Origin: Verrucomicrobiota bacterium
Lineage (GTDB): Bacteria; Verrucomicrobiota; Verrucomicrobiia; Palsa-1439
Assembly: GCA_003152315.1 (NCBI GenBank)
Contig: PLZV01000010.1
Location: 1 to 36,279 of the forward strand
Direction: 5' to 3'
Length of the DNA stretch: 36,279 bases
The position numbers were made by a program, and so were the translations under genes. The notes under the pieces are model-generated. The model worked only from the letters and a program-made list of their open reading frames with translations. It was not told where the DNA came from and searched no databases. Of this stretch, positions 3,727-27,501 are shown in pieces; the first letter of the stretch is position 1; each line of letters opens with the position of its first letter.

Positions 3727-3733
3727 GAAGCCC

Positions 3734-5607: not shown

Positions 5608-5623
5608 AGAACTACTTCTCGCC

Positions 5624-8773: not shown

Positions 8774-10068
8774 ACAAGACATGCGTTTGTTTGGCGTTGG
8801 CTTGCTCCGTCGGACTGGGTCTTCGCCCGGTGCGCGCCGAGGAAACGCACTCTCTGACCTTGAAAGAAGCACAGGAGATCACGCTCCGCAATCATCCCCG
8901 GATTTCCGAGACCGAACTGGAAGCACTAGCCACGGAGCAAATAGTGACGCAGGTCCGTGCCGGGTTCCTGCCGAGTGTGACGTTGAACGCCACGGCTGTG
9001 GATGCCTTTGAATCGAACACCCGCCTGGCGGCGGGCAGCCTGAATAACCCTTCTGTTTTTGATCGTGAGGCTGAGGGACTTACAGTCACGCAGATGTTGA
9101 CAGATTTTGGGAGAACCGCGCATCTGTTGAGTAGTTCCCGGCTTTATTCACGCGCACAAAATGCGAATGCCGAGGCAACGCGTGAGGAAATCCTGTTGCA
9201 AGTGGACGTAGCCTTTTTTACAGCATTGAAAGCGCAATCCGTGTTGGATGTGGCACGACAAACCTTGGAGACACGAAAATTGCTGCTAGATCAGGTTACC
9301 GCATTGGCCACAAATAAACTCCGATCCGAACTCGACCTCAGCTTTTCCCAAGTAGCCTACGAGGAGGGCAATCTACTGGTGGCCAAGGCGCAAAATGATT
9401 TGGACGAGGCGTTCGCGGTGCTCTCTACGCTGCTGGGGGATCGGGAGAAGCGCGCGTATCGGCTGATCGAAGAACCTGTATCGAATACGGCCACCGTGGA
9501 TACGACATCCTTGATTGACGTGGCGTTGTCGAGGCGACCGGATCTGGCCCGGTTGCGCTTGGAGCGCGATGGGGCTGCGCAATATGCGAAGGCGCAAAAA
9601 GCCCTCAGCTATCCAACCATTAATGCCTTCGGTAGCGGCGGTCTTATCCCGGTACGCGACACCGCTCATTTTGATGATCGGTACGCCGCCGCAGGTGTCA
9701 ATCTGAGTCTACCGATCTTCGATGGGGGTTTGAATTCTGCCAAGCGCTCGGAAGCCGAGTTGCGAGCCCAAGCGGCAGGGGAAAAACTACGGGATGCCGA
9801 GAACACGGCGATTCACGAAGTCCGCGCGGCGGGTCTCAATGTCAATTATGCCTGGGAACGGCTCGATTTGACCCAAAAACTCTTCGACAACGCCAGCCAT
9901 GCGTACGAACTGGCCGACGCGCGATACAAATTAGGGAGCAGCTCCATCGTGGAACTAAGCCAGGCACAACTCAGCAAGACCGAAGCCGAAATCGCCCACA
10001 CCAGCGCCAAATACGAGTATGAAATCCAGCGGGCCATGTTGAACTTCGAGATTGGTGCGGCGCAGTAA
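8770..10068 (+). CDS. TolC-family outer-membrane channel
   Basis: The gene starts at a GTG (8770) that overlaps the RND stop, giving 432 residues. A Sec signal peptide (MNKTCVCLALACSVGLGL, cleaved near VRAEE) precedes two similar halves of the outer-membrane-factor type. The first has LTLKEAQEITLRNHP and LGRTAHLLSSS-like helices; the second has LIDVALSRRPDLARLRLE, INAFGSGGLIP, ANLSLPIFDGG-like strand VNLSLPIFDGGLNSAKR, and a closing helix LADARYKLGSSSIVELSQAQ. There is no N-terminal lipobox, so it is not a lipoprotein channel of the CusC/OprM kind. It completes the tripartite efflux system and is the last gene of the operon; no clear terminator hairpin follows directly. Confidence 0.93.
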   Translation: MNKTCVCLALACSVGLGLRPVRAEETHSLTLKEAQEITLRNHPRISETELEALATEQIVTQVRAGFLPSVTLNATAVDAFESNTRLAAGSLNNPSVFDREAEGLTVTQMLTDFGRTAHLLSSSRLYSRAQNANAEATREEILLQVDVAFFTALKAQSVLDVARQTLETRKLLLDQVTALATNKLRSELDLSFSQVAYEEGNLLVAKAQNDLDEAFAVLSTLLGDREKRAYRLIEEPVSNTATVDTTSLIDVALSRRPDLARLRLERDGAAQYAKAQKALSYPTINAFGSGGLIPVRDTAHFDDRYAAAGVNLSLPIFDGGLNSAKRSEAELRAQAAGEKLRDAENTAIHEVRAAGLNVNYAWERLDLTQKLFDNASHAYELADARYKLGSSSIVELSQAQLSKTEAEIAHTSAKYEYEIQRAMLNFEIGAAQ

Positions 10069-11588: not shown

Positions 11589-12704
11589 TTATACCCTCAC
11601 CGCCATCGGCACGACGTTGGCGGGTTCGGCTGTGGATGCGCCCCAGTTCATGCGCTTGGCCATCGCGGCGCTGTGTTCGTCGCGCAAGTGGCCGTATGTC
11701 TTGGCTACGAGTAAACCCCCGTCTTTGTGCCCGAGCCAGCCCGCGATTGTTTTGAAATCAACGCCGGCTTCGATGGCATTGGAGCAAAAGAAGTGGCGCA
11801 GACTGTGGTGGTGGAAATGCGGTAGCTTTGATGTATCACAGGCAGACGTGATGGCTTTCTTTGCGTTGTCGATTTGTACGATGCGGTCTGTCGGTTCGGG
11901 TGGCTTGGGTAGTGAAGTCTGTACGCGTAGAAGAAACTCTTCCAGCGCGGGGAAAAGGGGAATAGTGCGCGCCTCGTGGTTCTTTGTGCCGGTTTCGCCG
12001 CCGGTCACGGTGAAGTTTTTCAATTCAAGATTTACGTCGCCCCAGGTCATGGCGGTGGCTTCCGCAAGACGGCAGCCGGAATAAGCTAGTAGCTCGCACA
12101 GATCAGCCGCCTCGCGATAGCGAACGTCCGACTTCCGCAATGTATCCAGCAGGGTCTTAAATTGCGCTTTCGTTGGGATGACAACCTTGGCTTGGTGTTG
12201 CTTGCGCCGCTCGACGACTCGCGCGGGGTTCTCCAGAATCAGGCCTTCGCGCATCCCGTAGTCGAGAATCTGAATCAGTGTCTCGCGCTCGATGTTGAAA
12301 GTGCGGGCCGCCGCAGTCTTGTTCCGTGATGCCGCCCAGGTATCGACGTGGCTCTTGTCGATAGCGCGGACGGTGTTGGTGAAGTACGGTTTTAACGCGT
12401 TGATCGCGGTCTCACGGCGCAAACGGCTCGACGGCTTCATCATGCTGCCGACGGTATCCAACCAACGTTTGGCTAGGTCGGCAAAGAGGATGGCCTTGCC
12501 TGCTTTGGTGTTGAGTCGGGCTACCTTTTGGCGTAAAGCTTCAAGTCGCCTGCGCGCCAGTTCTTTGTCAGTAGTTTTGAGTGATTTCTTAACTTGATCA
12601 CCCTTGCGGGTGAAGATGCCGTAGAAGACGCCGAAATCGGCGGAACGGTACAGGCAAGGGATATTGGTTTTCTCCAAGACTTGGCTCCTGGGGGCAGCTT
12701 TCAT
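11589..12704 (-). CDS. tyrosine recombinase / phage-type integrase
   Basis: From the ATG at 12704-12702 the product is 371 residues; the frame is open to a TTG at 12746, but that extension would read through the direct repeats. An N-terminal arm-binding-like region and a SAM-like core-binding domain (FADLAKRWLDTVGSM...INALKPYF) precede the catalytic domain. Catalytic residues are visible: R212 in AYSGCRLAEA, H300 and R303 in HHSLRHFF, H326 in GWLGHKDGG and the nucleophile Y337 in AKTYGHL. All are intact, so it should be active. Its start faces the 5' end of tRNA-Arg(CCU), 91 bp away, while an excisionase-like gene lies beyond its 3' end. This is the core of an integrated element. Confidence 0.93.
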   Translation of the reverse strand: MKAAPRSQVLEKTNIPCLYRSADFGVFYGIFTRKGDQVKKSLKTTDKELARRRLEALRQKVARLNTKAGKAILFADLAKRWLDTVGSMMKPSSRLRRETAINALKPYFTNTVRAIDKSHVDTWAASRNKTAAARTFNIERETLIQILDYGMREGLILENPARVVERRKQHQAKVVIPTKAQFKTLLDTLRKSDVRYREAADLCELLAYSGCRLAEATAMTWGDVNLELKNFTVTGGETGTKNHEARTIPLFPALEEFLLRVQTSLPKPPEPTDRIVQIDNAKKAITSACDTSKLPHFHHHSLRHFFCSNAIEAGVDFKTIAGWLGHKDGGLLVAKTYGHLRDEHSAAMAKRMNWGASTAEPANVVPMAVRV

Positions 12705-12714
12705 GGTGGGAATA

Positions 12715-12742
12715 GTAAAGATTGCAAGTTTAGATTGCAAGT
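12715..12742. repeat. tandem direct repeats upstream of the integrase
   Basis: AGATTGCAAGT occurs at 12719-12729 and 12732-12742, a 13-bp period. The longer word GTAAAGATTG, overlapping the first copy at 12715-12724, recurs at 12781-12790, only 5 bp before the tRNA. Such iterated sites between an integrase start and a tRNA suit arm-type integrase or Xis binding sites. This is an inference from position. Confidence 0.5.
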
Positions 12743-12795
12743 ACAATATATTGGCATAATGAAATGCTCACAAAAACACTGTAAAGATTGATTTT

Positions 12796-14530: not shown

Positions 14531-15319
14531 TTAGCGGAGCAGGCTCGTGTACATCCGCCTGACGTGAACGGGACCGCCGCGGAAATAAAAAGTCTTTTCG
14601 TAAGAAAATACCTGGACGGTGCGATCGAAAGTCAGGGTCCGCGGAGCGTCCGTGTAATTCGGATCATACACGTGGAAAGTAACTTGCCCGGGCTGGGTGG
14701 CCGCGATTTCTTCAAAGACCGTGACGGCATGATTGATGTTCAGCTCCGGGAAATTATAGAGCCACACCACCATTGGGTGGCCTTGATGCAGCCAGTCTTG
14801 CAAGTTATCGCATAGACGCCCCTCGTCTTCGGGTGAAGGTTTAAACGGCATGGGAAATTTCCGCAGGTGAAAATAGGTCGTCCACCCGGCGCCCAGGTTG
14901 GCGCGCAACAGGCGGCCCTCGCGTTCGCTCAATTCATGGAGGTTGGCAAAGCCTGGGAAGGCAACACGCTGGTCGGGAGGTTCGCTGGGCCACCATGCCG
15001 CGCGATCACGTACGTCACGAATGCGGCACGCCAGTTCCTCGGTTGACACGGGCGGCGCTTGCGGCTCGAAGCGGGCGTGTTTCCAGAATTGCACCACGCC
15101 TGCGGCCATGATGAAGCAGCGGCGGGTGTAGGAGTGTTCGCGTTCCTGCGGTTTTACATCTGGGGTATGAACACCGTTTTGGTAATTGAAGACCAATTCA
15201 TTGGCGTACGCGAAAGTATCATGCTGGAAGTTGAGGGGCCGGCCCGCGCCAGCGGTTGGTTGGACCGACGCGCAGCCTGCCGAAATCATCACGAGCCAGA
15301 CCGCAATCAAAATTCGCAT
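14531..15319 (-). CDS. lipoprotein with C39-peptidase-like C-terminal half
   Basis: From the ATG at 15319 the product is 262 residues with a lipoprotein signal MRILIAVWLVMISAGC (lipobox SAGC). The mature protein starts with FAYANELVFNYQNG, has a central helical region and ends with WLHQGHPMVVWLYNFPELN, then NHAVTVFE and VYDPNYTDAPRTLTFD. The GxPxxVxL...NHAVxVxxY...YDPN arrangement is how papain-like C39-type peptidases place their His and Asp, but at the position where a catalytic Cys is expected I see only Ala/Asn (FAYANEL). It is therefore probably inactive or a different fold. Its start overlaps the end of the deacetylase gene (15307-16029) by 13 bp, so the two are coupled. Confidence 0.7.
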   Translation of the reverse strand: MRILIAVWLVMISAGCASVQPTAGAGRPLNFQHDTFAYANELVFNYQNGVHTPDVKPQEREHSYTRRCFIMAAGVVQFWKHARFEPQAPPVSTEELACRIRDVRDRAAWWPSEPPDQRVAFPGFANLHELSEREGRLLRANLGAGWTTYFHLRKFPMPFKPSPEDEGRLCDNLQDWLHQGHPMVVWLYNFPELNINHAVTVFEEIAATQPGQVTFHVYDPNYTDAPRTLTFDRTVQVFSYEKTFYFRGGPVHVRRMYTSLLR

Positions 15320-16029
15320 GTTTTTAGTTCCAGTAGGCACCGCACATCCGCATCGTTATCCACATTGCGCGGGTGAAAGAAGAATTCGTGGAGTCCCGGG
15401 CGCAGTTGCCGCGCTGCATCCGCAACCTCCCGGGCCTGCATGTGAAACGTGCGGCCCAGACCCCACATCGTATCGCTGCGGCGGTGCGGGCAGCGCTGGC
15501 GCCGCAGTTCGAGGAACACCCTATCAGCAATTCCGGCAAGAATCACGCCCCTGGATGCCGGGAAGAACCGCGGCTTGCCCAAACGGACCCACCCTCCGAA
15601 TTGCGGGGGCAGGATATCCAGCAACGCCCTGTACACAAATGGATGGGCGTGGAGATGATGGTGTGAGTTAACGAAGGCACACGGCAGGCCGGTGGCGCGA
15701 AACAACTCCCACTGCACCTTGACCTCGTCGCGCATAAACCATCGCGCATTGGAGGACAGGCCGATGGCCCACCCTGCGCGCGAGTGTGATTTGCCCCATG
15801 GCCAGATGCTACGCGTGATGGGTTGCGAGTCGCAAAGGTGCAGATGCCAGCCAACTTGCAGACTTGGATTGTCCCGTGCCAGGCGAACGGCATCTTCGGT
15901 GGCCGGCTGGCCCATCATCAAACTCGCGCCGTGCAACACGCCGTGGCGATGGGCATGGATGATGGCGCGGTTGACCTCCGGGCTCATCCCAAAATCATCC
16001 GCGATGAAAAACACTTCTCTGTCGTTCAT
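15307..16029 (-). CDS. ChbG/YdjC-family carbohydrate deacetylase, HpnK-like
   Basis: The ATG at 16029-16027 gives a 240-residue protein beginning MNDREVFFIADDFGMSPEVN. The ADDFG motif supplies the metal-binding Asp pair. Further ligands are visible in VGWHLHLCD and in NSHHHLHAHPFV, and the end HEFFFHPR is also typical. The YdjC family removes acetyl groups from amino-sugar oligosaccharides; the HpnK branch accompanies hopanoid loci. Here it diverges from an HpnA-like gene, with start codons only 22 bp apart (or overlapping, if the other gene starts at 16028). It overlaps the downstream lipoprotein gene. Role as a deacetylase in glycolipid head-group processing is inferred from family and neighbours; no squalene-hopene cyclase is in the window. 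Confidence 0.82.
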   Translation of the reverse strand: MNDREVFFIADDFGMSPEVNRAIIHAHRHGVLHGASLMMGQPATEDAVRLARDNPSLQVGWHLHLCDSQPITRSIWPWGKSHSRAGWAIGLSSNARWFMRDEVKVQWELFRATGLPCAFVNSHHHLHAHPFVYRALLDILPPQFGGWVRLGKPRFFPASRGVILAGIADRVFLELRRQRCPHRRSDTMWGLGRTFHMQAREVADAARQLRPGLHEFFFHPRNVDNDADVRCLLELKTCEF

Positions 16030-16051
16030 GTTTGACGTAGATTCTGCCGCA

Positions 16052-17044
16052 ATGTTTGGGTCAACGCAATTCCTGATCACCGGGGGCACCGGGTTTATCG
16101 GCCGCCACGTAGTGCGGCGGCTACTCGCCCAGGGCGCGGGTGTGCGCGTATTCTGCCGCACACCGGAGAAAGCGCAACGGCTATTTGGCGACCGGGTCGG
16201 GATTGTGCGCGGGGACCTGCGCGATCGCGCCAGTGTCGTGGCGGCGATGCCGGGCTGTGGCGCGGTCATTCACCTGGGCGCGGCGTTTCAGTTTGGGCGC
16301 AAGGCACGGCGGATCAATGAGGAAACGAATGTGTCGGGCACGAGATATCTGCTGGAAGCCGGCGAGCGAGTCGGCCTCCAGCGGTTCGTGCACGTGGGTT
16401 CCTGTGGTGTGCTGGAGGGTCGCCACGATTTGCTGACAGAGCGTGACTTTCCGCGCGACGTGGATGTCCGCGAGTCGTATCGACGTTCCAAGTGGCTGAG
16501 CGAGATCGCCGCGCTGGAAGCCGCAGGTCGCGGGCTGCCGGTGACGATTGCCAGCCCCACGAGTCCGCTCGGTACCGGCGACGAAAAGCCGACGCCGACG
16601 GGGCGAATTGTTCAGGATTATTTACGCGGACAGTTTCCATTTGGCGCCCATGTGGGTTTAAACTTTGTCCATGTAGAAGATCTGGCCGAGGGGATCCTGG
16701 CAGTGGCGGAGCGAGGCCGAATAGGTGAACGGTATCTGCTCGGTCATCACAACGTGTGGCTTGATGAGTTTCTCCGGGTACTGGAACGGGTTACGGATCG
16801 TCCCGCTCCGCGCTTTACGCTGCCAAAGGCGGCGATTACGCTGGCGGGCGCCATCGGCGAAGCGACGGGCAGCGAACGGGTCTGTTGGGAAACCGCGGCG
16901 CACGCGCGGCGGCGGCAGTGGTTCGACTTCTCGAAAGCCGCCGCGGAACTGGGTTGGAGCGCGCGGGCGCCCTTGGATGCGATTGCTCGCGAGGCGGTCC
17001 AGTGGTTTCAGGCATGGCAGGATCAAGCGCGGATCTCGCGTTGA
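16052..17044 (+). CDS. HpnA-like NAD-dependent sugar epimerase
   Basis: Starting at the ATG at 16052 gives 330 residues; another in-frame ATG at 16028 would overlap the divergent start codon. The Rossmann loop is FLITGGTGFIGRHVV, and VIHLGAAF is the mid-domain strand. Catalytic Tyr/Lys lie in ESYRRSKWLSE. The later segments TSPLGTGDEKPTPTGRIVQ, GLNFVHVEDLAEG and IGERYLLG match the hopanoid-associated HpnA type closely. It probably modifies a nucleotide sugar or sugar-lipid intermediate for the glycosyltransferase encoded 9 bp downstream. As hopanoid cyclase genes are absent here, the lipid acceptor could be the product of the adjacent ketosynthase cluster. No clear ribosome-binding site decides the start. 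Confidence 0.85.
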   Translation: MFGSTQFLITGGTGFIGRHVVRRLLAQGAGVRVFCRTPEKAQRLFGDRVGIVRGDLRDRASVVAAMPGCGAVIHLGAAFQFGRKARRINEETNVSGTRYLLEAGERVGLQRFVHVGSCGVLEGRHDLLTERDFPRDVDVRESYRRSKWLSEIAALEAAGRGLPVTIASPTSPLGTGDEKPTPTGRIVQDYLRGQFPFGAHVGLNFVHVEDLAEGILAVAERGRIGERYLLGHHNVWLDEFLRVLERVTDRPAPRFTLPKAAITLAGAIGEATGSERVCWETAAHARRRQWFDFSKAAAELGWSARAPLDAIAREAVQWFQAWQDQARISR

Positions 17045-17053
17045 CGAAATCAA

Positions 17054-18232
17054 ATGTCACAACATTTTAAATGGCTGCTCATCTGTTGGTCCCTGCTGGC
17101 TTTTTGCTGGTGGGGGATCGCGCTCTGGCTCGTCTCCCGCGAACGTCATAGACCGCGTTCGCGAAAGATGCGTGGAAGCCATGCCGCCCAGCAGAATCGG
17201 CCTCCATTATCCATCTTCAAGCCGATCCCATCTTTACAGGGTGACACACCTTCGCCGCAGTTGGTCGGCGCTTTGGAGTCGTTTGTCAGTCAGTTGACTG
17301 CGGATGCCGAGATGTTACTGGGCATCGAGGAGACCGAGGCGGCGGCCTGGGAGCCCGTCATCGGGAAGTGGCGGCAGACCTATCCCGGGGTGAGATTGAA
17401 CGTGATCGTTGCCCCGCGGCCCGCGCAATTCCACAGCCCGAAAGTTTCCTGGTTTCACCATTTGGCGCGATACGCCGAGGGCGAAGTGTGGTTATGGAGC
17501 GATGCGGACATTATCGCGCCCGCTGGATCTCTGGATGCGATGCGTCGGGAGTTCCTGGAAAGTGGCGCGGGGATGTTGACATGTCCATATGTGGTCCGGA
17601 ATATCGGGCCGGCTCCCATGATGTTGGAAGGGTTATTTGTGAACATGGAGTTTTACCCGGGCGTGCTATTTTGCCGGCAAATGGGTCCCGTGCGATTCGG
17701 GTTGGGACCGGCGATGATGTTTTCAGCGATGCGCTTTCGCGAACGCGCGCTGTGGGAGAAACTGGGTGCGCGCATGGCGGACGACAACGCGCTCGGCCAC
17801 GCCCTGGCGCCGGTGAAGGTCAGCGAAACCACGGTGGTGACTTTCGCGGCGGAATCGGATTGGCGGGATGCGATCGAGCATTACTTCCGTTGGCAAAAAA
17901 CGGTGCGCTGGTGTCAACCAGCCGGTTTTGCGGGACTGGTCATCATCCAGCCGATGCTGGGTTGGCTCTCGGCCGTACTGCTGCATCCGGGCAACCCGGT
18001 CGCTTGGTTGGGATTGGCGGCGACGGGGCAGGTCGAAGTGCTGACGGCGACGAGTTTGTTTTGGTTGGTCGGTTACGAAATGCGCTCGTGGTGGGTGGTT
18101 AGTTTGTGGAGCCTGCTACTGCGGCCGCTGACGTGGGTCGCCTGCTGGATGCCGTGGCCGGTTGTGTTCCGTTCGCAGAAACGGAAATGGTGGAGTTTGT
18201 ATCATTCGGTGCCGTTGGAGGGAGAAACATGA
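17054..18232 (+). CDS. membrane glycosyltransferase, ceramide-glucosyltransferase/HpnI-like
   Basis: The 392-residue protein starts with one membrane helix (LLICWSLLAFCWWGIALWLV), then a GT-A catalytic domain: LSIFKPIPSLQG, the nucleotide-sugar motif LWSDADI (D150, D152), the acceptor-side acidic motif ADDNALG (D243-D244) and HYFRWQKTVRW, which takes the place of the (Q/R)xxRW motif. Two or three C-terminal membrane segments (LVIIQPMLGWLSAVLL, ATSLFWLVGYEM, VVSLWSLLLRPLTWV) follow. This order is that of GT21-type lipid glycosyltransferases, including HpnI. It should transfer a sugar to a membrane lipid at the cytoplasmic face. It follows HpnA-like by 9 bp, and its stop overlaps a 20-codon ORF, placing it at the head of the lipid cluster. 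Confidence 0.85.
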   Translation: MSQHFKWLLICWSLLAFCWWGIALWLVSRERHRPRSRKMRGSHAAQQNRPPLSIFKPIPSLQGDTPSPQLVGALESFVSQLTADAEMLLGIEETEAAAWEPVIGKWRQTYPGVRLNVIVAPRPAQFHSPKVSWFHHLARYAEGEVWLWSDADIIAPAGSLDAMRREFLESGAGMLTCPYVVRNIGPAPMMLEGLFVNMEFYPGVLFCRQMGPVRFGLGPAMMFSAMRFRERALWEKLGARMADDNALGHALAPVKVSETTVVTFAAESDWRDAIEHYFRWQKTVRWCQPAGFAGLVIIQPMLGWLSAVLLHPGNPVAWLGLAATGQVEVLTATSLFWLVGYEMRSWWVVSLWSLLLRPLTWVACWMPWPVVFRSQKRKWWSLYHSVPLEGET

Positions 18233-18291
18233 AGCAAGTCCCACAATTGCTGCGGTTGCCGCACCCCGGGGCGTTCCTTGTTGGAGGCTGA
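18229..18291 (+). CDS. 20-residue ORF between glycosyltransferase and ketosynthase
   Basis: An ATG overlapping the glycosyltransferase stop (ATGA at 18229-18232) opens a 20-codon frame that ends 4 bp before the ketosynthase ATG. A strong purine-rich site, GGAGGGAG, lies at 18217-18224 with good spacing, so translation is likely. The peptide contains PQLLRLPHPGAFLVGG, which resembles the 'LLPHxxPFL' opening of hotdog dehydratases such as FabZ. It may be the truncated start of a lost dehydratase gene, a coupling leader for the ketosynthase, or a real micropeptide. All three are conjecture. Confidence 0.45.
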   Translation: MKQVPQLLRLPHPGAFLVGG

Positions 18292-18295
18292 CGCC

Positions 18296-20533
18296 ATGAG
18301 CGAGCGCGTGGTGGTTACCGGCATTGGCGCTGTGACCCCGCTGGGCCTGGATTTTCCGACCACATGGCAGCGGCTCGTGGCGGGGGAAGATGCGGCGGCA
18401 CCGGTCGCTCTATTTGATGTCGCTGGCTGTCGCTGCAAACAGGCCGCGGCGGCACAATTGCCCGATCTTCCCGATTTCACTCCTAAAAGATTGTCGCGGC
18501 TCTCGCGGGCCAGCCGTCTCGCATTGCCTGCCGCGCAAGAAGCGTTGGCGAACGCCGGATTGCTGGACGATCGAAGGCGGTCGCGTTTGGCGCAGTTGGC
18601 ACTTTCCGTCAGCACTACTGGCGGCGGCATGGCGTTGGGCGAACAGTTCCTGCGGGCGATGCTGGGGCAACCATCCCGCGCGCGGCAGTTCTTCCGCGTC
18701 GCGCGGTATCAGTCGCAGAACCAGGTGCATGATCTGCACGAGCACCTCGGTTTCCGCGGGCCGATAACGATTGTGGCGAACGCCTGCGCCAGTGGCGCCA
18801 ATGCGATCGGCCACGGCGCGGATCTGATTCGTTCTGGCCGATGCGACTGCGTGCTGATCGGCGGCTTCGAAGCGCTGACGGAATTGATCTACGTAGGTTT
18901 CGACTGCCTGCAGGCCATGAGTCCCGAGCGTTGCCGTCCGTTCGATGTGGCGCGTAACGGCTTGATGCTCGGGGAAGCCGCGGCGTTTGCGGTGCTGGAA
19001 TCGGAGTCGCATGCTCGCTCGCGCAACGCAACCATCTTGTGTGAACTGGCGGGCTACGGACACGGAACCGATTTGCATCATTTGACACAACCGCATCCCA
19101 GTGGAGTTGCCGCCGTGGCCGCGATGCGCCAGGCCATTACCGAAGCGGGTTGCCACGCTTCCGACATCGGCTATGTGAACGCGCACGGCACCGGCACGCT
19201 GCTGAATGACACGAGCGAAGGCGCTGCGTTCGCGGCGGTATTTGGCGAGGACGGCGCGATTCCGTCGCGCATGCGCATCAGTTCTACAAAGGCCGCGATT
19301 GGTCACACACTCGGGGCGGCGGGTAGTATCGAAGCCTTGTTTGCGATGGCGGCGTTGCAGTCGGGACAACTCCCACCGAATCTGAACGTCCGTCAGCCGG
19401 AGCCGATTGTGGCGGCGAACCTCGTCGCTGTAGGAGAGCGGCAAGACGGAATGGCGGCGACGTTGACCGTGAATCTTGGGTTTGGCGGATCGAATGCCGC
19501 GCTGGTTTTCAAGCGGTACGATCAAGGCGCTGTGCATCGAGCGCGTGGCGGCGGTCATCGTCCGCCGCTGGAGTTGGCCATTTGCGGGATGGGCGCGGTG
19601 TTGCCGTCCGAAGTACCGCAACAGATACAGGGGTTGCAGGTGACGACCGGGGAGCACACGGTGCTTTGCGTGGACAGAAACCGGGAGCCCCTGGCAACGT
19701 TGCAGAATGAGTCGCGCGTGCGCCGGGCCAGTCCGATTACCTTGTATATGCTGGCCGCAGCACAACAGGCGTTGGCCGCGGCTCCGGCGATCTCTCGAGA
19801 CCGGCTGGGCATCGTTGCGACATTCAACACGGGCGCGGTCGTGGCTACGCGGCGGTTTTTTGAGGGCATCGTCCAGACCGGCCAGCGTTTTGCCAGTCCA
19901 AATTTGTTTCCCGAAACAGTTTTCAATTCACCAACCAGCCATGTTGCGGCGGTACTCGGAGTGGCTGGACCATGCTCTTCGCTCGTCGGTGACGACACGG
20001 CGTGGGTCAATGGGATCAGCGTGGCGGCGGCGTGGCTGGCGAACGGGTTGGTGGAACACGTGCTGGTGATCGGCGCGGAGGAACTCGATCCCATCGCAAT
20101 CGATGCCTACCAGCGCGCGGGCTGGTTGTCACCGCCCACGCGGACGGGTTTTGTGCCGAGCGAGGGCGCCGGTGCGTTACTCTTGGGGCGGGCGGAATCT
20201 GGAAAAGGACTGCGCATCGCGCAATGGACGGAAGGCTTCACCTACCGCCAGCGCAGCGAAGCGCTGTCGTCAGCGCAGGAATGCCTCGCGCAATTTCCAA
20301 AGGACGTCCTTCGTTGTCGCAACGCGCCACATAACTGGTTTCACCACATCGAAGAGCAGTTGTCCGATGGAAAGACCCTGTCATTGCCGTATCGCGGCGA
20401 TGCGTTTGTGGCGTCCGCTGCCTGGAGCACAATTGACGCGGCGGAAGCGGCGCGGCGCGAGGGACGCAGAATTTTGTTGCCCGTCTGGGGTTTGAGCGGG
20501 CAATGTTCCGCTTTGCTTTTGGCCGCCGGATGA
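18296..20533 (+). CDS. fused ketosynthase and degenerate ketosynthase (KS-CLF-like)
   Basis: From the ATG at 18296 (GGAGG at 18280-18284) the product is 745 residues. Residues 1-410 form a complete FabF-type beta-ketoacyl-ACP synthase: C164 in NACASGANA, H297 in NAHGTGT, K332 and H337 in STKAAIGHTLG, and the closing NLGFGGSNAALV. Residues 428-745 are a second thiolase-fold domain starting LAICGMGAVLP. Its active-site position, aligned through the preceding Gly-Pro, reads Asp567 instead of Cys, and its HGTGT and KxxxGH motifs are missing. This is the layout of a KS-alpha with a chain-length-factor-like partner, normally two genes in aryl-polyene and type II polyketide systems but fused here. 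It should extend acyl-ACP chains on the carrier encoded at 20562. Confidence 0.88.
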   Translation: MSERVVVTGIGAVTPLGLDFPTTWQRLVAGEDAAAPVALFDVAGCRCKQAAAAQLPDLPDFTPKRLSRLSRASRLALPAAQEALANAGLLDDRRRSRLAQLALSVSTTGGGMALGEQFLRAMLGQPSRARQFFRVARYQSQNQVHDLHEHLGFRGPITIVANACASGANAIGHGADLIRSGRCDCVLIGGFEALTELIYVGFDCLQAMSPERCRPFDVARNGLMLGEAAAFAVLESESHARSRNATILCELAGYGHGTDLHHLTQPHPSGVAAVAAMRQAITEAGCHASDIGYVNAHGTGTLLNDTSEGAAFAAVFGEDGAIPSRMRISSTKAAIGHTLGAAGSIEALFAMAALQSGQLPPNLNVRQPEPIVAANLVAVGERQDGMAATLTVNLGFGGSNAALVFKRYDQGAVHRARGGGHRPPLELAICGMGAVLPSEVPQQIQGLQVTTGEHTVLCVDRNREPLATLQNESRVRRASPITLYMLAAAQQALAAAPAISRDRLGIVATFNTGAVVATRRFFEGIVQTGQRFASPNLFPETVFNSPTSHVAAVLGVAGPCSSLVGDDTAWVNGISVAAAWLANGLVEHVLVIGAEELDPIAIDAYQRAGWLSPPTRTGFVPSEGAGALLLGRAESGKGLRIAQWTEGFTYRQRSEALSSAQECLAQFPKDVLRCRNAPHNWFHHIEEQLSDGKTLSLPYRGDAFVASAAWSTIDAAEAARREGRRILLPVWGLSGQCSALLLAAG

Positions 20534-20561: not shown

Positions 20562-20831
20562 ATGGCTGAAGTTTCGCTGGATGAATTGAAGAAACTGGTT
20601 GTCGAGAACTGCGTCCTGAAGATCAAGCCCGAAGAGATCGGGGAGGGGACGCCGTTATTCGGGCCGGGGAGTGTGGGGCTAGACTCGTTGGACGCTCTGC
20701 AATTGACGGTGGCCATCGAGCAGCAGTTCGGGATTGTGATCAACGACGCGGAAGTCGCGCGGCAGGCGTTGCAATCGCTCGGTGCACTGCGTCGTTGGTT
20801 GGCACAGCAACCCGGCGTCGGCGCGAAATAG
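20562..20831 (+). CDS. acyl carrier protein
   Basis: An 89-residue acidic protein of carrier-protein length. The phosphopantetheine attachment serine is S42 in VGLDSLDALQL, followed by the helix VAIEQQFGIVINDAEV. The first helix (LDELKKLVVENCVL) and the IGEGTPLFGPGS loop fit ACPs of aryl-polyene-type loci. No phosphopantetheinyl transferase is encoded in the window, so a general cellular one must load it. It lies 28 bp after the ketosynthase and 11 bp before the flavoenzyme, in the same transcript. Confidence 0.93.
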   Translation: MAEVSLDELKKLVVENCVLKIKPEEIGEGTPLFGPGSVGLDSLDALQLTVAIEQQFGIVINDAEVARQALQSLGALRRWLAQQPGVGAK

Positions 20832-20842
20832 CAGTGACGCTC

Positions 20843-22099
20843 ATGAATGCTCCATCTGTCTACGACACGATCATCATCGGTGGCGGCCCCGGCGGCAGCA
20901 CGGCGGGCGCATTCCTGGCGAAGGCAGGGCAGCGCGTGCTCGTGCTGGAGCGCGAGATCTTTCCGCGGTTCCATATCGGTGAATCGCTCCTGCCATTTGG
21001 GAACGACGTGCTCAAGGAAACCGGTGTGTGGCCGAAAGTCGAGGCCGCCGGGTTCCAGCCGAAGTACGGCGCGGAGTTTTTTGTCAGCAACGGTTCGCGC
21101 TGGCAGCGGTTCTGGTTCGCGCGCGGCCTGGTGCCGGGTTACGGGCAAACATTCCAGGTCGAGCGCGCAAGATTCGACCACATCTTGCTTGATCACGCCA
21201 GCGCGTGCGGCTGTGAAGTGCGCCAGGGTTGTGCAGCGAAAGAAGTGACGCGCACCGACGGTGGGTGGCGCGTCACCCTGGACGATGGGGAGGTGCGGGG
21301 GCGCTGGCTGATCGACGCGAGTGGGCGCGACACGTTTATCGGTCGCGCCCTGGGCCTGCCAAAAACCCCCCTCAACATCCCGAAACGCGTTGCCGTGTAC
21401 GCGCATTTCACGGGCATATACCGCAACCCGGGCGACGCGGAAGGGCACATCACGATCGTGCGGCTGCGGGACGGATGGTTCTGGTTGATTCCGCTAGCGG
21501 GCGGCAAAACCTCGGTCGGCATGGTGCGGATGCTTGACGACCTGAAACAGTTCGGCGGCTCGGTCGAGGAATGGTTTGCAAAAACGATTGCGGAGAGCAG
21601 CGAGTTGACGCGACGCATGAAGGACGCGCAGCAAGTGGGGGAGTTCTACAAGACTTCCGACTACAGCTATCGTTACGCGCAACTCGCCGCGGATCGCGCG
21701 ATTCTAATCGGCGATGCGGGTGGGTTCATCGACCCGATTTTTTCGTCGGGCGTGCACATTGCCACAAAGTCGGGGCAATGGGCGTCGGACTTGATCTTGC
21801 GCGCCGACACGCAGAAGCGTTCCCTGACCATTGGGGAGCAGCGACATTATACGCGGGAAATGCATCGGTTCATGGACATTTATCGCGACATGATCCTGAT
21901 GTACTACGACAACCGCGCCTTCGAGGTGTTCATGCACCCACGCAACCGCTTTCGCATGGTCCAGACGGTGAACTCGATCCTGGCGGGGAACATGCGCCGC
22001 TCCTTTGACATGTGGTGGCGGGTGAAACTCTTTCGATTGATCTGCGCGCTTCATCGCCGCGTGCCGATCGTGCCGCGACTGGATTACACCGAGACTTGA
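20843..22099 (+). CDS. FAD-dependent oxidoreductase of the flavin halogenase-like family
   Basis: The ATG at 20843 gives 418 residues. An N-terminal FAD loop DTIIIGGGPGGSTAGAFLA is followed by FPRFHIGESLLP and GFQPKYGAEFF, then FQVERARFDHILLDHA and the second FAD motif AILIGDAGGFIDPIFSSG. Two features recall flavin-dependent halogenases: the WxWxIP block at W212-P217 (GWFWLIPL) and a lysine, K74, in the GFxxKxGA position that carries the reactive lysine in phenolic halogenases. The same features occur in some non-halogenating relatives, so halogenation of an ACP- or lipid-bound ring is possible, not shown. Its stop overlaps the acyltransferase start (TTGA), so it is an operon member. Confidence 0.85.
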   Translation: MNAPSVYDTIIIGGGPGGSTAGAFLAKAGQRVLVLEREIFPRFHIGESLLPFGNDVLKETGVWPKVEAAGFQPKYGAEFFVSNGSRWQRFWFARGLVPGYGQTFQVERARFDHILLDHASACGCEVRQGCAAKEVTRTDGGWRVTLDDGEVRGRWLIDASGRDTFIGRALGLPKTPLNIPKRVAVYAHFTGIYRNPGDAEGHITIVRLRDGWFWLIPLAGGKTSVGMVRMLDDLKQFGGSVEEWFAKTIAESSELTRRMKDAQQVGEFYKTSDYSYRYAQLAADRAILIGDAGGFIDPIFSSGVHIATKSGQWASDLILRADTQKRSLTIGEQRHYTREMHRFMDIYRDMILMYYDNRAFEVFMHPRNRFRMVQTVNSILAGNMRRSFDMWWRVKLFRLICALHRRVPIVPRLDYTET

Positions 22100-23004
22100 A
22101 ACCGCATTACTCGCAGACATTGTACCGGGCCTTTTGGTTCAAGGCCGGCGTTGTCCTCGCGCGGTTCCTCGGAGTCAAGGGCGCGCGCTGCGCGAGTCGC
22201 GTGCTGGCAGAAATGTATCGCCTGACGCATCCGCAGACGCAGACAGCGGTGCGCGAGAATCTTACACTGCTCTGCGGACCGGAACTGCGCGAACAATCTG
22301 TCCGCCGCACGTTCCGCAATTTTGGCGCGACGCTCGCCGATTATTTTCAGCTGGGGGCACGCGACAAGCCACACGCACTGGCCCTGATTGAATCGCGCCG
22401 CGGGTTCGAGCATATCCAGGGAGCGCTTGCCGACGGCAAAGGCGCGCTGCTGGTGACGGTGCACACGGGATTGTTTGAACTCGGCGGGGTGCTGATGGAG
22501 GAATTTCGACTGCCGCTGGTCGTGCTGTCCTTACCGGAACCGAGCGCGGCGTTGAACCGCTGGCGGGCCGCGTACCGTCAACAGTGGGGTGCGGAGACGC
22601 TGGAGGTCGGCACGGACCAATTCAGTTTTGTGGATATCTCGCGCCAACTCGCGCACGGCAAATGCGTCGCGATGCTCATGGACCGACCGCACGGCAATGG
22701 CGACGTGGTGTTCGCGGATTTTCCGCATGGCCGTGTGCCGTTTTCGACCGGGCCCGTATGGCTCAGTCTGTTGACAGGTGCGCCGCTGGTGGCGGTGAAC
22801 ATACTGGCGACGGAGTCGGGCAACTACGCGCTAGAAGCGCTGCCGCCCCTGCGCTGGCAATGGCGCGGCCCCGACCGGGCCGCGACCGTTCGCGAGTACA
22901 CGCTCGAACTTGCCAGTCGTTTTCGTGAACCGTTATGCAATCACCCGGACCAATGGTATCAATTCATACCGCTGTCGCGGCTTTACTCCTCGGCATCGGC
23001 CTGA
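22096..23004 (+). CDS. LpxL/HtrB-type acyltransferase
   Basis: I take the TTG at 22096, which overlaps the previous stop, because the protein homology begins there and no ATG follows soon; this gives 302 residues. The HX4E catalytic motif is H123-E128 in TVHTGLFELGG, after the typical LTLLCGPELREQ and FRNFGATLADYF segments, and MLMDRPHGNGDVVFADFPHG matches the substrate-binding region of lipid A late acyltransferases. In aryl-polyene and flexirubin loci such enzymes move the finished acyl chain from ACP to a membrane lipid acceptor, and that role fits here. The 3' end overlaps the LolA-like gene. It is probably anchored at the inner membrane, although its first helix is weakly hydrophobic. 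Confidence 0.87.
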   Translation: MKPHYSQTLYRAFWFKAGVVLARFLGVKGARCASRVLAEMYRLTHPQTQTAVRENLTLLCGPELREQSVRRTFRNFGATLADYFQLGARDKPHALALIESRRGFEHIQGALADGKGALLVTVHTGLFELGGVLMEEFRLPLVVLSLPEPSAALNRWRAAYRQQWGAETLEVGTDQFSFVDISRQLAHGKCVAMLMDRPHGNGDVVFADFPHGRVPFSTGPVWLSLLTGAPLVAVNILATESGNYALEALPPLRWQWRGPDRAATVREYTLELASRFREPLCNHPDQWYQFIPLSRLYSSASA

Positions 23005-23579
23005 CTGCGGCCCGCGCGGACACGAATGCCGACGCGTTTGTCGCGCACCAGGTGGCCACGCAAACGTTTGAGGCGGACCTGCGCCAGGTGTTTCACTGGA
23101 GCTTTCCGCGAAAACACGTCGAAAGCCTCGGACACATCAGCTACCAGGCCCCGGGTTTTCTCGCGATTGTCCTCACCAATCCTGCGTCGGAACTGGTTCT
23201 TGTGCGCGGGGACGACCTCTATATCCAGCGCGACAAAAAGGCGCTGGGGACGTACAAGTTGGAGGTGCACAACGGCAAACCGGCGCAGAACGTGCAGTTT
23301 CTATTAAGCTTCTTCCAGAACGGCTGCACCAATTTCGCCGGGCTTTTCGATGCCATCGTCACGCGGGCCGACGACGCACAGACGGTCACGCTCCGGCCCA
23401 AGCATCCCGGACGGATGTTCCCGCTACGGTTCGTCGACAATGTGATCGCCTGGCCCTCGCTGGACGTGCGCTCGATGCGCATCGGCCTGATCTGGGACAG
23501 CTACATTACCTACGAGTTTAGCAATCCGCGCCGCAACCAGCCGCTTGCTGCCACTGTCTTCGAGGTGCCGAAACGATGA
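22953..23579 (+). CDS. LolA-like periplasmic outer-membrane carrier protein
   Basis: The chosen ATG (22953) gives a clean Sec signal, MVSIHTAVAALLLGIGLTAA, cleaved near ARADTN; the ATG at 22935 would add six residues. The mature part is LolA-like: FEADLRQVFHWSFPRKHVES, then strands GHISYQAPGFLAIVLTNPAS, LVLVRGDDLYIQRD, FLLSFFQNG and a C-terminal LRFVDN...SYITYEFSN. Aryl-polyene loci regularly contain such a protein, believed to ferry the hydrophobic product across the periplasm. The gene overlaps the acyltransferase by about 50 bp and the dehydratase by ATGA, so expression of all three is tied together. Confidence 0.78.
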   Translation: MVSIHTAVAALLLGIGLTAARADTNADAFVAHQVATQTFEADLRQVFHWSFPRKHVESLGHISYQAPGFLAIVLTNPASELVLVRGDDLYIQRDKKALGTYKLEVHNGKPAQNVQFLLSFFQNGCTNFAGLFDAIVTRADDAQTVTLRPKHPGRMFPLRFVDNVIAWPSLDVRSMRIGLIWDSYITYEFSNPRRNQPLAATVFEVPKR

Positions 23580-23977
23580 GTCTCACGCCGCATGGTCCGG
23601 GTTTTACGTTTCTCGATTCGTTCGAGATTATCGAGCCGCAGAAGCGCGGTCGGGGTCGCAAGTGGCTCGACCCGGCGGCGCCGTTTTTTGCCGATCATTT
23701 TCCTGGCAACCCGTTGATGCCCGGCGTGCTGCTCATCGAGTGCGCCGCACAGGCGGCGGGGGTACTGTGGCAGCCATCCGGCGGGGCCTTCCTTGCCGCC
23801 GTGAGCCAGTTTCGCTTTCGCAAGCCGGTCTTGCCCGATCAAACGTTGGACATCGAAGTGACGCTGGAGAAGGAACTCGGCGCGTTCGCGCAATTCGACG
23901 CCGTCTTACGCGTCGGTTCGACCGTTGTGACTCAAGGCAAATTGACGCTGAGCCGGGCCCTTAGCTCCGTGGTGTGA
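23576..23977 (+). CDS. FabZ-like 3-hydroxyacyl-ACP dehydratase (hotdog)
   Basis: A 133-residue single hotdog protein with the intact FabZ active site HFPGNPLMPGVLLIECAAQA: H41 from one subunit and E55 from the other perform the dehydration. The following AVSQFRFRKPVLPDQTLDIE is the family's strand-turn core. It would remove water from hydroxyacyl-ACP to build double bonds during chain extension by the fused ketosynthase. It starts in ATGA overlap with the LolA-like gene, and its last 46 bp overlap, on the opposite strand, the end of the acyl ligase gene. No ketoreductase that would supply its substrate is encoded nearby. Confidence 0.9.
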   Translation: MSLTPHGPGFTFLDSFEIIEPQKRGRGRKWLDPAAPFFADHFPGNPLMPGVLLIECAAQAAGVLWQPSGGAFLAAVSQFRFRKPVLPDQTLDIEVTLEKELGAFAQFDAVLRVGSTVVTQGKLTLSRALSSVV

Positions 23978-25179
23978 AGTTTACCGCGATCGGATCGGAA
24001 GAGGGCGGGGGCGATGAGCCAGGATTTGGGGAGCTTCCAGGCGGGCAGGGTCTTCAATAATTCCTGTTCGATATCAGCGCGGGTGCGAGTGGTTTCGACA
24101 GCGGCGGCGAGGTAATTGTTACCGCGTTTGTCATTCAAGACCGTGACCCAGACATCGGTGATGCCCCGGAGTTTGCGCAACGCGCCTTCGAGTTCTGCCG
24201 GAACGACTTTCTTACCGCCGACGTTGGCCACTTCCCCGACGCGACCGAGCAAGCGCAACTCGGCGTAGCGATTCCATTCACCCAAATCGGGCAGCGTGGC
24301 TTTACCGGCGGGGCTGGTTACCGCGACGCAGCCGTCGCGACGAATCCGCACTTTCACGCCAGCCAGCGGCTTGCCGACGCTGCGACCTTTCAGCGTCGCG
24401 GTCCCGGTGCGGTCATAGGTGATGCCGCCGGTTTCGGACGAACCGTAGAAATTGTGGATCTTAATGCCAAAACGATGGTGGAATTGCTGCGCCACTTCTG
24501 CCGTCAAGGGCGCGCCGGCGGAAATCACCAGGCGCAGGCTGGGCGGTTTGGTGGCGCCTTCCAATTGGGCCAGTGCGCGCAGGATCGCGGGAACGGTCGG
24601 CAAGACCGTGACTTTATGTTCGTCGATCAAACGCAAGATTTGGCGTGGGACGAACGCTTGTGCGCAGACAACTATCGTTCCTTGCAGCAGCAAAGGCATC
24701 ACGAGATTGCCCAGACCATACGAATGGCCCAGTGGAATGATGGCGAGGTTGCGGTCGGCGGGGCGAATTCCCATGGTGCGGATGATGTGTTCGCCATCCG
24801 CCCGCAGGTTGGCCGCGGAGCAGAGAATGCGCTTCAGGTCGCCGGTGGTGCCCGAGGTAAGCTTCACGCAGCAAATTGAGGATTTTGGGCGCACGCCAAG
24901 ACGGTAAACGGTTTCGCGTTGGGTTTCAGGGGGCAACGAAATATCGAGAGGGACGGCGGCAGCGCCGATTTTTTGGATGGCGAAGAACGTCGCGAGCCAC
25001 AAGGCGCTGTTGGGCTGGCAGAGGGGCACGTAGGGGCCGCGAAACATCGTGGCGAGGTGCTCGGCCTCCGCGGTGAGTTGGGCAGCAGTCCACGCGCGGC
25101 CGGTGTCGGCATCGATCGCGACCGGTTTTTCGGCGTAGTTAGCGGCGGTGGACTGCCACAATGTCCAAAGCGAGGTCAT
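23932..25179 (-). CDS. AMP-forming acyl/aryl ligase (ANL superfamily), short form
   Basis: The ATG at 25179 overlaps the antiporter stop (ATGA), giving 415 residues, about 100 shorter than typical acyl-CoA synthetases. The ATP loop is VKLTSGTTGDLK (about residues 105-116), the mid motif PLGHSYGLGNLVMPLL follows, and the adenine/acid pocket is FYGSSETGG. The hinge lies in LGRVGEVANVGGKKVVPAEL, and the catalytic C-terminal lysine K400 is in RGKLHTTEL. All steps of acid adenylation appear possible. In aryl-polyene-like clusters such ligases activate the starter acid and load it on the ACP; a cinnamate-type starter is conceivable, but no ammonia-lyase is present. It is convergent with the dehydratase and overlaps it. 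Confidence 0.87.
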   Translation of the reverse strand: MTSLWTLWQSTAANYAEKPVAIDADTGRAWTAAQLTAEAEHLATMFRGPYVPLCQPNSALWLATFFAIQKIGAAAVPLDISLPPETQRETVYRLGVRPKSSICCVKLTSGTTGDLKRILCSAANLRADGEHIIRTMGIRPADRNLAIIPLGHSYGLGNLVMPLLLQGTIVVCAQAFVPRQILRLIDEHKVTVLPTVPAILRALAQLEGATKPPSLRLVISAGAPLTAEVAQQFHHRFGIKIHNFYGSSETGGITYDRTGTATLKGRSVGKPLAGVKVRIRRDGCVAVTSPAGKATLPDLGEWNRYAELRLLGRVGEVANVGGKKVVPAELEGALRKLRGITDVWVTVLNDKRGNNYLAAAVETTRTRADIEQELLKTLPAWKLPKSWLIAPALFRSDRGKLHTTELRARLSVNLP

Positions 25180-26477
25180 ACGTCCGGGAGCAACTCGTAT
25201 TTGTACCCGATTTTGCGGAAATACAGCCGCAAGAACGGCGCGGTGATCACCGTGCTGAAAATGGCCATGAGCACCAGCATGGTGAATACATTCGGCGGGA
25301 TGACGCCGAGGTCGAAACCGACATTGATCACCACGAGTTCCATGAGTGCGCGGGTGTTCATCATGATGCCAAGGCAACCGGCATCCGCCCAACTCAGGCC
25401 GCAGAACCGCGCGGCCAGCGAGCACCCGACGAATTTACCGAACGTGGCCGCGCCGATGATGACCAGGCACCAGCCCCAGAGCAGGGGGGAATTCAAGCCG
25501 TGCACGTTGGTGCGCAACCCGGTGAACGTGAAGAAGATTGGCAGAAAGAACACCGTGACGAAATGCGAGACGGTATTCTTCCAAGCCGCTACAAACCGTG
25601 CATGGTCGTGAAGCATCATGCCCGCAACGAAACCGCCGAAGATGGTGAACACTCCGAGTTTGTAGGTGATCAACCCCGAAATGAAAACAACCATAATCAT
25701 GATCGCCAACAGATCGTGGGGGAGGCGTTCGTTGGTCCCCATGAATCTGTCGATCAGACGTTTCAACAGCGGTCGAAATGCGAAATGGCACACGGCCAGG
25801 TACACGACCAGCAGGCCGACCTGCAACGCGAACGTCTCCACCGAAAACCCTGAAGTTGCCAGCGCGCTGACGATCGCCAGCAACGTCCAACCGGTTACGT
25901 CGTCCATCGCCGCGGCGGTGATGGCGATGGCGCCGAGACGGGTTTTGGTGATTCCCAACTCCATCATGATGCGACCGAGTACCGGGATGGCCGTGATGGA
26001 CAGCGCCACGGCGAGGAAGAGCCGGTAGCCCAGCGGGTTGATCCCCTGGGCCAAAAACTCATGAGACCAGCCACCGATCAGCCATCCCAGCGCCAGGGGC
26101 AGTACGATTCCCGCCGCCGATATGCTAAAGACCGCGGCGCGGGTTTGTTTTTCGCGGAGATGGCTGAAATCGAATTCCAGGCCGATTTGAAACATTAACA
26201 GCGCCAGCCCGATCTGGCTAAGGATGACCATCGGCACGGACGAAATCGACTTGAAGACAAAGTCAAACTGGTTTGGAAACAAGCGGCCGAACAAGGATGG
26301 TCCCAGGATGAGGCCGCCGACGATTTCCCCAACGACGCGGGGTTGTCCGAGTAATCGCGCAACTTTCCCTGACAGGCGGGCGGCGGCAAGAATGGCGACC
26401 AATTGAATGAATGTGAAGGAGACGAGTCTTTCCGTCTCGTGGACGGAGGAGGCTGCGGCGGCGAGGATCAGGATCAT
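25176..26477 (-). CDS. cation/proton antiporter, CPA2 type
   Basis: With the ATG at 26477, one base after the radical SAM stop, the product is 433 residues with about 12 membrane segments and no C-terminal TrkA/RCK domain. Recognisable CPA2 parts are LGQPRVVGEIVGGLILGPSL, LSQIGLALLMFQIGLEFDF, ALSITAIPVLGRIMMELG, and AAAMDDVTGWTLLAIVSAL, which holds the ion-binding acidic pair. GIMMNTRALMELVVINVG is the second inverted-repeat counterpart. It should exchange Na+ or K+ for protons across the inner membrane. Its place between a radical SAM enzyme and an acyl ligase, with stop-start overlaps on both sides, is odd. It may balance pH or ion stress linked to the lipid product, or simply ride in the operon. 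Confidence 0.92.
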   Translation of the reverse strand: MILILAAAASSVHETERLVSFTFIQLVAILAAARLSGKVARLLGQPRVVGEIVGGLILGPSLFGRLFPNQFDFVFKSISSVPMVILSQIGLALLMFQIGLEFDFSHLREKQTRAAVFSISAAGIVLPLALGWLIGGWSHEFLAQGINPLGYRLFLAVALSITAIPVLGRIMMELGITKTRLGAIAITAAAMDDVTGWTLLAIVSALATSGFSVETFALQVGLLVVYLAVCHFAFRPLLKRLIDRFMGTNERLPHDLLAIMIMVVFISGLITYKLGVFTIFGGFVAGMMLHDHARFVAAWKNTVSHFVTVFFLPIFFTFTGLRTNVHGLNSPLLWGWCLVIIGAATFGKFVGCSLAARFCGLSWADAGCLGIMMNTRALMELVVINVGFDLGVIPPNVFTMLVLMAIFSTVITAPFLRLYFRKIGYKYELLPDV

Positions 26478-26478
26478 A

Positions 26479-27501
26479 TCAGGAAACTGGCGCGGTGGAG
26501 ATGCCGTTGCGCAGGTGTTCCGCGACACTGATGCGGCTGGGCTGGCAGCCGGCCTGTTCGATGGCTGACAGCACGCGCTCTTCATCCATAATGACGCGGT
26601 CGCGTTTGTAAATCGGGTAATCGGCGCGGACATTGCGTGGCGTGAAGTTGATCGTGGCAAGATTGGCGCCCGCCTGGAAAGCACGCACGTAACCATTCTC
26701 GGACACCAATTTCATGGCGCTGACGGCCGGGATGAGCCAATGAGGCGCGGCCAGTCGCATCCAAGCGACACAATTCAAGGTTTGCTCGATGCACCCGTTT
26801 GGCGCATTGACAAACGGCGTTTGTTCCCCGGCCACGAACGGGCTCACGCTGCCACCCGCCAGAGGCAGTGTGGTCAGCAACTGCAACGACTGTGTTAGAA
26901 TCTCGGCGGTTTGTCCGGGCAGCCCCACGATCAATCCCGACGACACCTTCCAGCCCGTGCTCGCGAGATAACGGATCGCCTCGACTCGTTCGGCCAGGGT
27001 TCCCGGAGCTTCAATGAAGCGGTAGTGCTGCGCTTCGCCGGTTTCAATTTTCAACACGTAGTAATGACCGCCGGCTTCGCGGAGTTCGTCGTACTCGGGC
27101 GGCGTCAGCGTGCCGAGGCAGAGCGTGATACCGAGGTCGGTGTGCCGATGCAACTCACGCACCAACGGGAGCACGACTTCGCGAACTGCCACGGGATCTT
27201 CGCCGGCCTGGATGTCGATGTCCGTCATGGAAGCAGGCCGGTGATGGATGATCAAGTCCGCGAGTTCGTCCGCCGCGAGCCGGTAGCGCGCCAGCTGGCG
27301 GTTGTCGCGCCGCATCGCGCAGTAATGGCAGTTTTGGCGGCAGTAGTTCGACACCTCGACTACGCCGCGCACAAACACGCGACGGCCGAAAACCGCGTCC
27401 CGCGCCGCGGCCGCTCGCGCATGGAACGCCTGCTGCGTACCGTCGGCGTTGTTCAACCGATAAAAATCTTGCCTGGTCTCACCCATTGCCGATGACAGCA
27501 T
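26479..27501 (-). CDS. radical SAM enzyme, HydE/BioB-like
   Basis: A 340-residue radical SAM protein. The cluster-binding motif is C54-x3-C58-x2-C61 in SNYCRQNCHYCAMRRDN, followed by LARYRLAADEL, DIDIQAGEDP and ITLCLGTLTPPEYDEL, then YYVLKIETG, SSGLIVGLPGQTAE and PFVAGEQTPF. The RRDN-x5-RYRL signature is most like HydE and methylornithine synthase (PylB) relatives of biotin synthase. No hydrogenase maturation partners or pyrrolysine genes are present, so the substrate is open. It heads the minus-strand unit radical SAM, antiporter, ligase, with one base between it and the antiporter. The first ATG (27501) has no visible Shine-Dalgarno sequence; a second ATG at 27486 is an alternative. Confidence 0.85.
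   Translation of the reverse strand: MLSSAMGETRQDFYRLNNADGTQQAFHARAAAARDAVFGRRVFVRGVVEVSNYCRQNCHYCAMRRDNRQLARYRLAADELADLIIHHRPASMTDIDIQAGEDPVAVREVVLPLVRELHRHTDLGITLCLGTLTPPEYDELREAGGHYYVLKIETGEAQHYRFIEAPGTLAERVEAIRYLASTGWKVSSGLIVGLPGQTAEILTQSLQLLTTLPLAGGSVSPFVAGEQTPFVNAPNGCIEQTLNCVAWMRLAAPHWLIPAVSAMKLVSENGYVRAFQAGANLATINFTPRNVRADYPIYKRDRVIMDEERVLSAIEQAGCQPSRISVAEHLRNGISTAPVS

Follow-up and report, generated by a model that had tools for sequence, protein, structure and literature searches.

Organization of the fused gene and its neighbourhood

On the plus strand of the 36,279-nucleotide stretch analysed here (the window), an open reading frame at 18296–20533, with an ATG at 18296, GGAGG just 5′ of it and a stop codon at 20531–20533, encodes a protein of 745 residues. 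The protein consists of a FabF-type ketosynthase (KS) half, comprising residues 1–408 (18296–19519, +), a linker of about 15 residues (409–423; 19520–19564, +) and a second half resembling a chain-length factor (CLF), comprising residues 424–745 (19565–20530, +). The linker is variable in sequence, differs among congeners, most strongly in genome G001, and has low pLDDT at residues 415–421. In the KS half the Pfam domains PF00109 and PF02801 cover residues 3–365, and Cys164 (18785–18787), His297 of the HGTGT motif (19184–19186), Lys332 (19289–19291) and His337 of KAAIGH (19304–19306) are all present, confirming the first-pass annotation, which had described 745 residues with Cys-His-His in the first half. 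Both histidines and the lysine are conserved in 32 of 32 relatives and the cysteine in 31 of 31, one of the 32 aligned rows lacking that column. The first half thereby contains the Cys-His-His and Lys set of the KS partner in a KS-CLF pair. Its top sequence match is PDB entry 9s5h, one chain of which is also matched by the second half.

The second half retains the N-lobe of the fold, has a shortened C-lobe and lacks Cys-His-His. Its match to PF00109 (39.7 bits, E 5.5e-10) establishes KS homology beyond chance, while PF02801 is not matched. In the alignment VGDDTAW lies opposite ANACASG, which places Asp567 (19994–19996) at the former cysteine position and Asp566 immediately before it (Asp566-Asp567, 19991–19996, +). 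Compared with full-length relatives the C-lobe is reduced, and for this reason the HGTGT and KxxxGH motifs are missing. The aspartate and the two absent motifs had been noted before, but the aspartate is not diagnostic: the position is occupied by D, E, Q, G, A, K, P or S among 32 relatives, never by Cys, and Asp was therefore dismissed as a signature residue. The preceding residue, in contrast, is Asp or Glu in 32 of 32. Equally constant is an arginine patch, R474-V-R476-R477 (19715–19726, +), the R-x-R-R pattern of which is found in all 32 relatives, and an FPETV motif is nearly invariant; across 22 second-half relatives from many families 17 columns are invariant. The second half is thus a KS homologue without a nucleophile, as is expected of a CLF partner. 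Classical actinobacterial CLFs carry Gln at the cysteine position, which here is Asp and is Gln in one of the 32 relatives. The profile PF13723 (Ketoacyl-synt_2), which we take to be linked to ApeC, matches the window protein with 17.2 bits, under the Pfam cut-off of 25, and is matched by 10 of 22 second-half family members at E values up to 0.1.

The fused gene is flanked by genes for an HpnI-like glycosyltransferase of family 21 (17054–18232, +; PF13506, TIGR03472 below cut-off) and an acyl carrier protein (ACP; 20562–20831, +; PF00550), the latter being its probable partner. Further upstream lie an HpnA-like epimerase gene (15692–17044, +; TIGR03466 256 bits, below cut-off), which like the HpnI-like gene belongs to a cluster conserved in relatives, and a gene for an HpnK/YdjC-like deacetylase (15307–16269, −; PF04794, TIGR03473 145.6 bits, below cut-off). 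Downstream follow genes for a FAD-dependent halogenase/hydroxylase-like protein (20795–22099, +; PF04820), an LpxL-type acyltransferase (22012–23004, +; PF03279), a LolA-like protein (22935–23579, +; 40.9 bits against flexirubin LolA2, below cut-off), a FabZ/ApeI-like dehydratase (23576–23977, +; PF07977, PF22818) and an AMP-dependent acyl ligase (listed ORF 23932–25425, −; PF00501, with the homologous part starting around residue 83). Relatives share much of this gene set. No dedicated ketoreductase or second KS (ApeQ, ApeR) was recognised among the window ORFs scanned. The simplest reading of the cluster would be the attachment of an unsaturated chain to an envelope glycolipid.

Several other features surround the cluster. 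In relatives the corresponding clusters include large proteins with a C-terminal LpxL-type acyltransferase (L176:9240-12458 and L185:3751-6933), preceded in the L176 protein by an MMPL exporter domain, whereas the acyltransferase of the window stands alone. A radical SAM protein at 26479–27501 (−) is nearest to HydE (204.8 bits, below the cut-off of 254.6), and such HydE-like proteins are kept beside the KS-CLF clusters of several relatives. At the other end of the window, a two-component system with HlyD-type, AcrB-type RND and outer membrane efflux genes (1634–10068, +) is followed by a phage-type integrase gene (11589–12746, −).

Predicted structure and role of the second half

An AlphaFold2 model of the full chain, based on 33 sequences, has a pTM of 0.86 and a mean pLDDT of 78.6, and is weakest in the C-lobe of the second half; pLDDT values fall below 50 at residues 645–703, within this C-lobe, and at 438–462. 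The first Foldseek match in the PDB is the KS-CLF didomain of PfaC (PDB entry 6riw), which reaches a TM-score of 0.78 when normalised by the full query length (rmsd 7.9 over 889 columns), while the single KS chains among the matches listed do not exceed a TM-score of 0.52. A whole-query score of 0.78 implies that both halves superpose on 6riw simultaneously. The matches that VIA-align lists for the full-chain model are single KS chains and cover residues 1–410 only. When modelled alone, the second half reaches a pTM of 0.79 and superimposes on FabF and KS-CLF chains with Z-scores of 31–32 (approximately 306 of 326 residues, rmsd 2.5–3). The two halves are thus predicted to pack as a KS dimer. 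The first-pass annotation had read the protein as a KS fused to a CLF-type KS, which the fit of the model to a KS-CLF didomain along the whole chain bears out; packing of the halves as the KS-CLF heterodimer, which it had proposed to check by modelling, is supported by this fit and by the pTM of the full chain, the interface itself being a prediction.

Taken together, the protein is very probably a single-chain KS-CLF pseudo-heterodimer, which would extend chains carried by ACP in a pathway to envelope lipids or polyenes. By analogy with FabF, the first half would be the elongating KS, in which the growing acyl chain would be loaded onto Cys164 and malonyl-ACP would be decarboxylated by His297 and His337, both present in the sequence. 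The second half would be a catalytically dead KS, with the thiolase N-lobe kept and most of the catalytic C-lobe loops gone, and is predicted to pack against its active counterpart in the place of the other protomer of a KS dimer. In this position it would offer its arginine patch for ACP docking and would line the far side of the substrate tunnel, setting chain length and substrate preference. Judged from the neighbouring genes, the cluster enzymes would then build the unsaturated chain onto an envelope glycolipid. Counting against a KS-CLF are the missing Gln of classical CLFs, the PF13723 score under the cut-off, the lack of a recognised adjacent ketoreductase, and the home cluster of G001, which is without KS-CLF while a fused copy is located elsewhere in that genome.

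A role of the second half in ACP docking and tunnel shaping, not in catalysis, is supported by the alignments. The arginine patch aligns with the ACP-docking helix of Thermus FabF; the register of E. coli FabF against the aligned Thermus FabF is assumed here. In E. coli FabF, Lys65, Arg68 and Lys69 bind AcpP (PMC7138838), and in the aryl polyene (APE) CLF the conserved Arg30 and Arg31 have been proposed to bind ACP (PMC8358021). A docking and tunnel-shaping role is favoured because R-x-R-R and FPETV are kept while the cysteine position varies, and because of these parallels in FabF and the APE CLF.

The KS half could instead homodimerise, with the second half appended as a docking domain outside the dimer. 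FabF is a homodimer, and by its score the first half is a complete FabF-like KS. However, the whole-chain match to PfaC needs the halves to be arranged roughly as in the didomain, and relatives encode separate KS and CLF genes side by side, which makes this arrangement improbable. The acidic residue that precedes the cysteine position in every relative might suggest a KSQ-like decarboxylase or another starter-unit enzyme in which Asp567 or Asp566 would be the catalytic acid, since in other systems malonyl groups are decarboxylated by a Gln in place of the cysteine. Both the decarboxylation histidines and the lysine are missing in the second half, however, and with eight different residues at the cysteine position among relatives no side-chain chemistry is conserved there, so that such an activity is slightly less probable still. 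That the second half is a decaying, functionless KS duplicate carried on the C-terminus is the least credible explanation, as the loss of Cys, His and His and the shortened C-lobe, modelled at low confidence, are outweighed by a dN/dS no higher than in the first half (see below), by the 17 invariant columns, by a wide occurrence in the class almost entirely as stand-alone genes, and by the ability of the second half to fold alone in the prediction.

Several known systems come close to the window protein. The KS-CLF of PfaC, from polyunsaturated fatty acid synthases, is likewise a natural single chain with KS preceding CLF, and residues 643–860 of 6riw also match the profile of the window second half; an intramolecular dimer has been proposed for it (PMC13311796). 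PfaC belongs to a megasynthase with many domains, whereas the window KS-CLF stands by itself, its ACP being encoded separately: the reading frame stops after the CLF half and contains KS-type domains only, without the DH domains of such a megasynthase. In addition, the window CLF has a shortened C-lobe, and the identity to PfaC is 16%. The ApeO-ApeC pair (PDB entry 6QSP; AbApeO-AbApeC) combines an elongating KS with a CLF that is without most of its second thiolase domain, as in the window, and the same kind of loss has been described for ApeC, the APE chain-length factor (PMC8358021). APE clusters also share dehydratase, LolA-like, acyl ligase and acyltransferase genes with the window. Unlike the single chain of the window, ApeO and ApeC are encoded by separate genes that are distant in the E. 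coli cluster, and the window differs further from APE systems by a CLF under the PF13723 cut-off and a cluster without a recognised second KS or ketoreductase. Direct relatives are the separate KS/CLF pairs of the same class (e.g. in G026, G083 and G219), the CLF of which is 42–50% identical to the second half; these are two genes versus the single gene of the window, in overlapping neighbourhoods. Single-chain double-KS proteins of approximately 800 residues from Fibrobacter, Lachnospiraceae, Eubacterium and Treponema (L039, L047 and others) resemble the window protein in having HGTGT and KxxxGH in the first half and not in the second, but their second half is full-length, has other residues at the cysteine position and shows about 20% identity to that of the window. 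A literature search for natural KS-CLF fusions in mainly freely accessible papers had no hits. Single-chain KS-CLFs are a kind already known, of which the window protein, free-standing and with a reduced CLF half, is a new variant.

Conservation, distribution and origin of the fusion

The fused frame is unbroken in both other genomes of the genus, G002 (89% identity) and G001 (59% identity), so that no stop or frameshift separates the halves within the genus, and an assembly or frameshift artefact is ruled out by its preservation in three separate genomes. In the comparison of the window with G002, the first half has a dN/dS of 0.14 and the second one of 0.11, similar to the 0.10–0.20 of the flanking genes; the low value of the second half indicates purifying selection. 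A remnant or pseudogene is ruled out by this dN/dS and by the broad conservation. The concern that the second half might be a truncated, unfolded remnant is answered similarly: its C-lobe is indeed shortened, yet it is predicted to fold alone and is under selection. The window protein is a real, conserved fusion, neither remnant nor artefact.

Of the 384 class genomes, 121, from 69 of 171 genera, contain second-half homologues. In the neighbourhoods read, they are nearly always encoded by a separate gene directly behind the KS gene, in line with the first-pass statement that KS and CLF subunits are normally separate genes, and the two genes often overlap shortly, in several cases by 4 bp. A search for the two-domain architecture, as that annotation had proposed, reveals fused frames in nine genomes from three lineages of the class: three from the genus of the window, five from a second genus (792–850 residues, family code f27) and G135 (family code f32), truncated by a contig end. 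In G006, from the same family, the CLF is interrupted by a contig end, which leaves fused and separate arrangements indistinguishable. The open frames of G046 (1115 residues) and G286 (776 residues) were not counted, their KS and CLF being in different frames, and G007:C13 and G056:C155 matched both halves in the search while their ORFs gave KS-half matches only.

Trees of the KS and CLF halves show the same main clades. On these trees the fusion needs three changes of state, which could in principle include losses, the starred branches alone forcing two, and a single clade of all fused proteins is rejected on the KS tree (p-AU 2e-70). The join therefore probably arose three times within the same bacterial class, as judged from the sequences, and is recurrent. 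The earlier suggestion that it may mark one separate lineage is not supported, given the three lineages, the rejected clade and the existence of other single-chain KS-CLFs. The fusion would have arisen by in-frame joining of neighbouring KS and CLF genes, which often overlap, with a short linker between them, and it fixes a 1:1 stoichiometry of KS and CLF.

In the CLF C-lobe, the fused f27 proteins L167, L168 and L169 carry repeat-like inserts that keep the frame (GRDALRRVRLDA, TVGTPARDCRDA), and their linkers are odd; the sequences suggest mobile repeat elements within these genes.

Relation to B12 radical SAM genes and implications for degenerate FabF proteins

In the home cluster of G001 the KS-CLF has been lost and only C-terminal CLF remnants are left, beside a small membrane-protein-like ORF. 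The start of this transporter-like ORF (L184, G001:C101, 8280-8933, minus strand) is resembled by a short stretch of the window between the HpnI-like gene and the KS (18229–18290); the two lineages thus seem to have lost different genes. G001 has a divergent fused copy on a different contig, where a B12 radical SAM gene directly precedes it; this gene scores 411.6 bits against TIGR04072 (rSAM_ladder_B12, cut-off 360). Among the 384 class genomes, 16 of the 23 with strong TIGR04072 matches also have the CLF (hypergeometric p 1.3e-4, uncorrected for kinship). In seven genomes, each of a different family, TIGR04072 and CLF genes share a strand and are no more than approximately 3 kb apart, and TIGR04072 directly adjoins the KS-CLF in G001 and G056. 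The TIGR04072 gene is located upstream of the KS-CLF at G056:C43:22602-23951, at G001:C113:22157-23497 and in five more genomes. Within the window no TIGR04072 gene is present, the single copy of its own genome being unlinked (G000:C20), and the locus in this respect differs from a ladderane-type FASII cluster.

Degenerate FabF proteins have been described before in planctomycetes. Kuenenia and Rhodopirellula have FabF paralogues without Cys163, with Asp or Glu at this position in R. baltica (Rattray 2009, PMC2649909), and the ladderane-cluster study left the role of the Rhodopirellula paralogues open (PMC2649909). The R. baltica pair keeps some histidine residues (table in PMC2649909), the likeness of the Kuenenia and Rhodopirellula paralogues to the window second half being by description only. 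It is conceivable, though rather unlikely, that the KS-CLF family forms the elongation core of a ladderane-like route, that the degenerate FabF proteins of Rhodopirellula and the anammox bacteria are its CLF subunits, and that together with the TIGR04072 B12 radical SAM enzyme an unusual polyene or cyclised envelope lipid is made. If so, the in-frame fusions would be evidence pairing the subunits.

As KS-CLF pairs otherwise need co-expression, a free-standing single-chain KS-CLF is handy for structural work and engineering. The most informative part of the finding is the recurrent fusion, which suggests that degenerate FabF-type proteins are CLF subunits: the repeated in-frame joining of neighbouring genes is a good comparative argument for the degenerate protein being the CLF partner of its KS. 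It offers a testable answer on the role of the planctomycete FabF paralogues with Asp or Glu in place of Cys, and perhaps of those in the ladderane clusters too.
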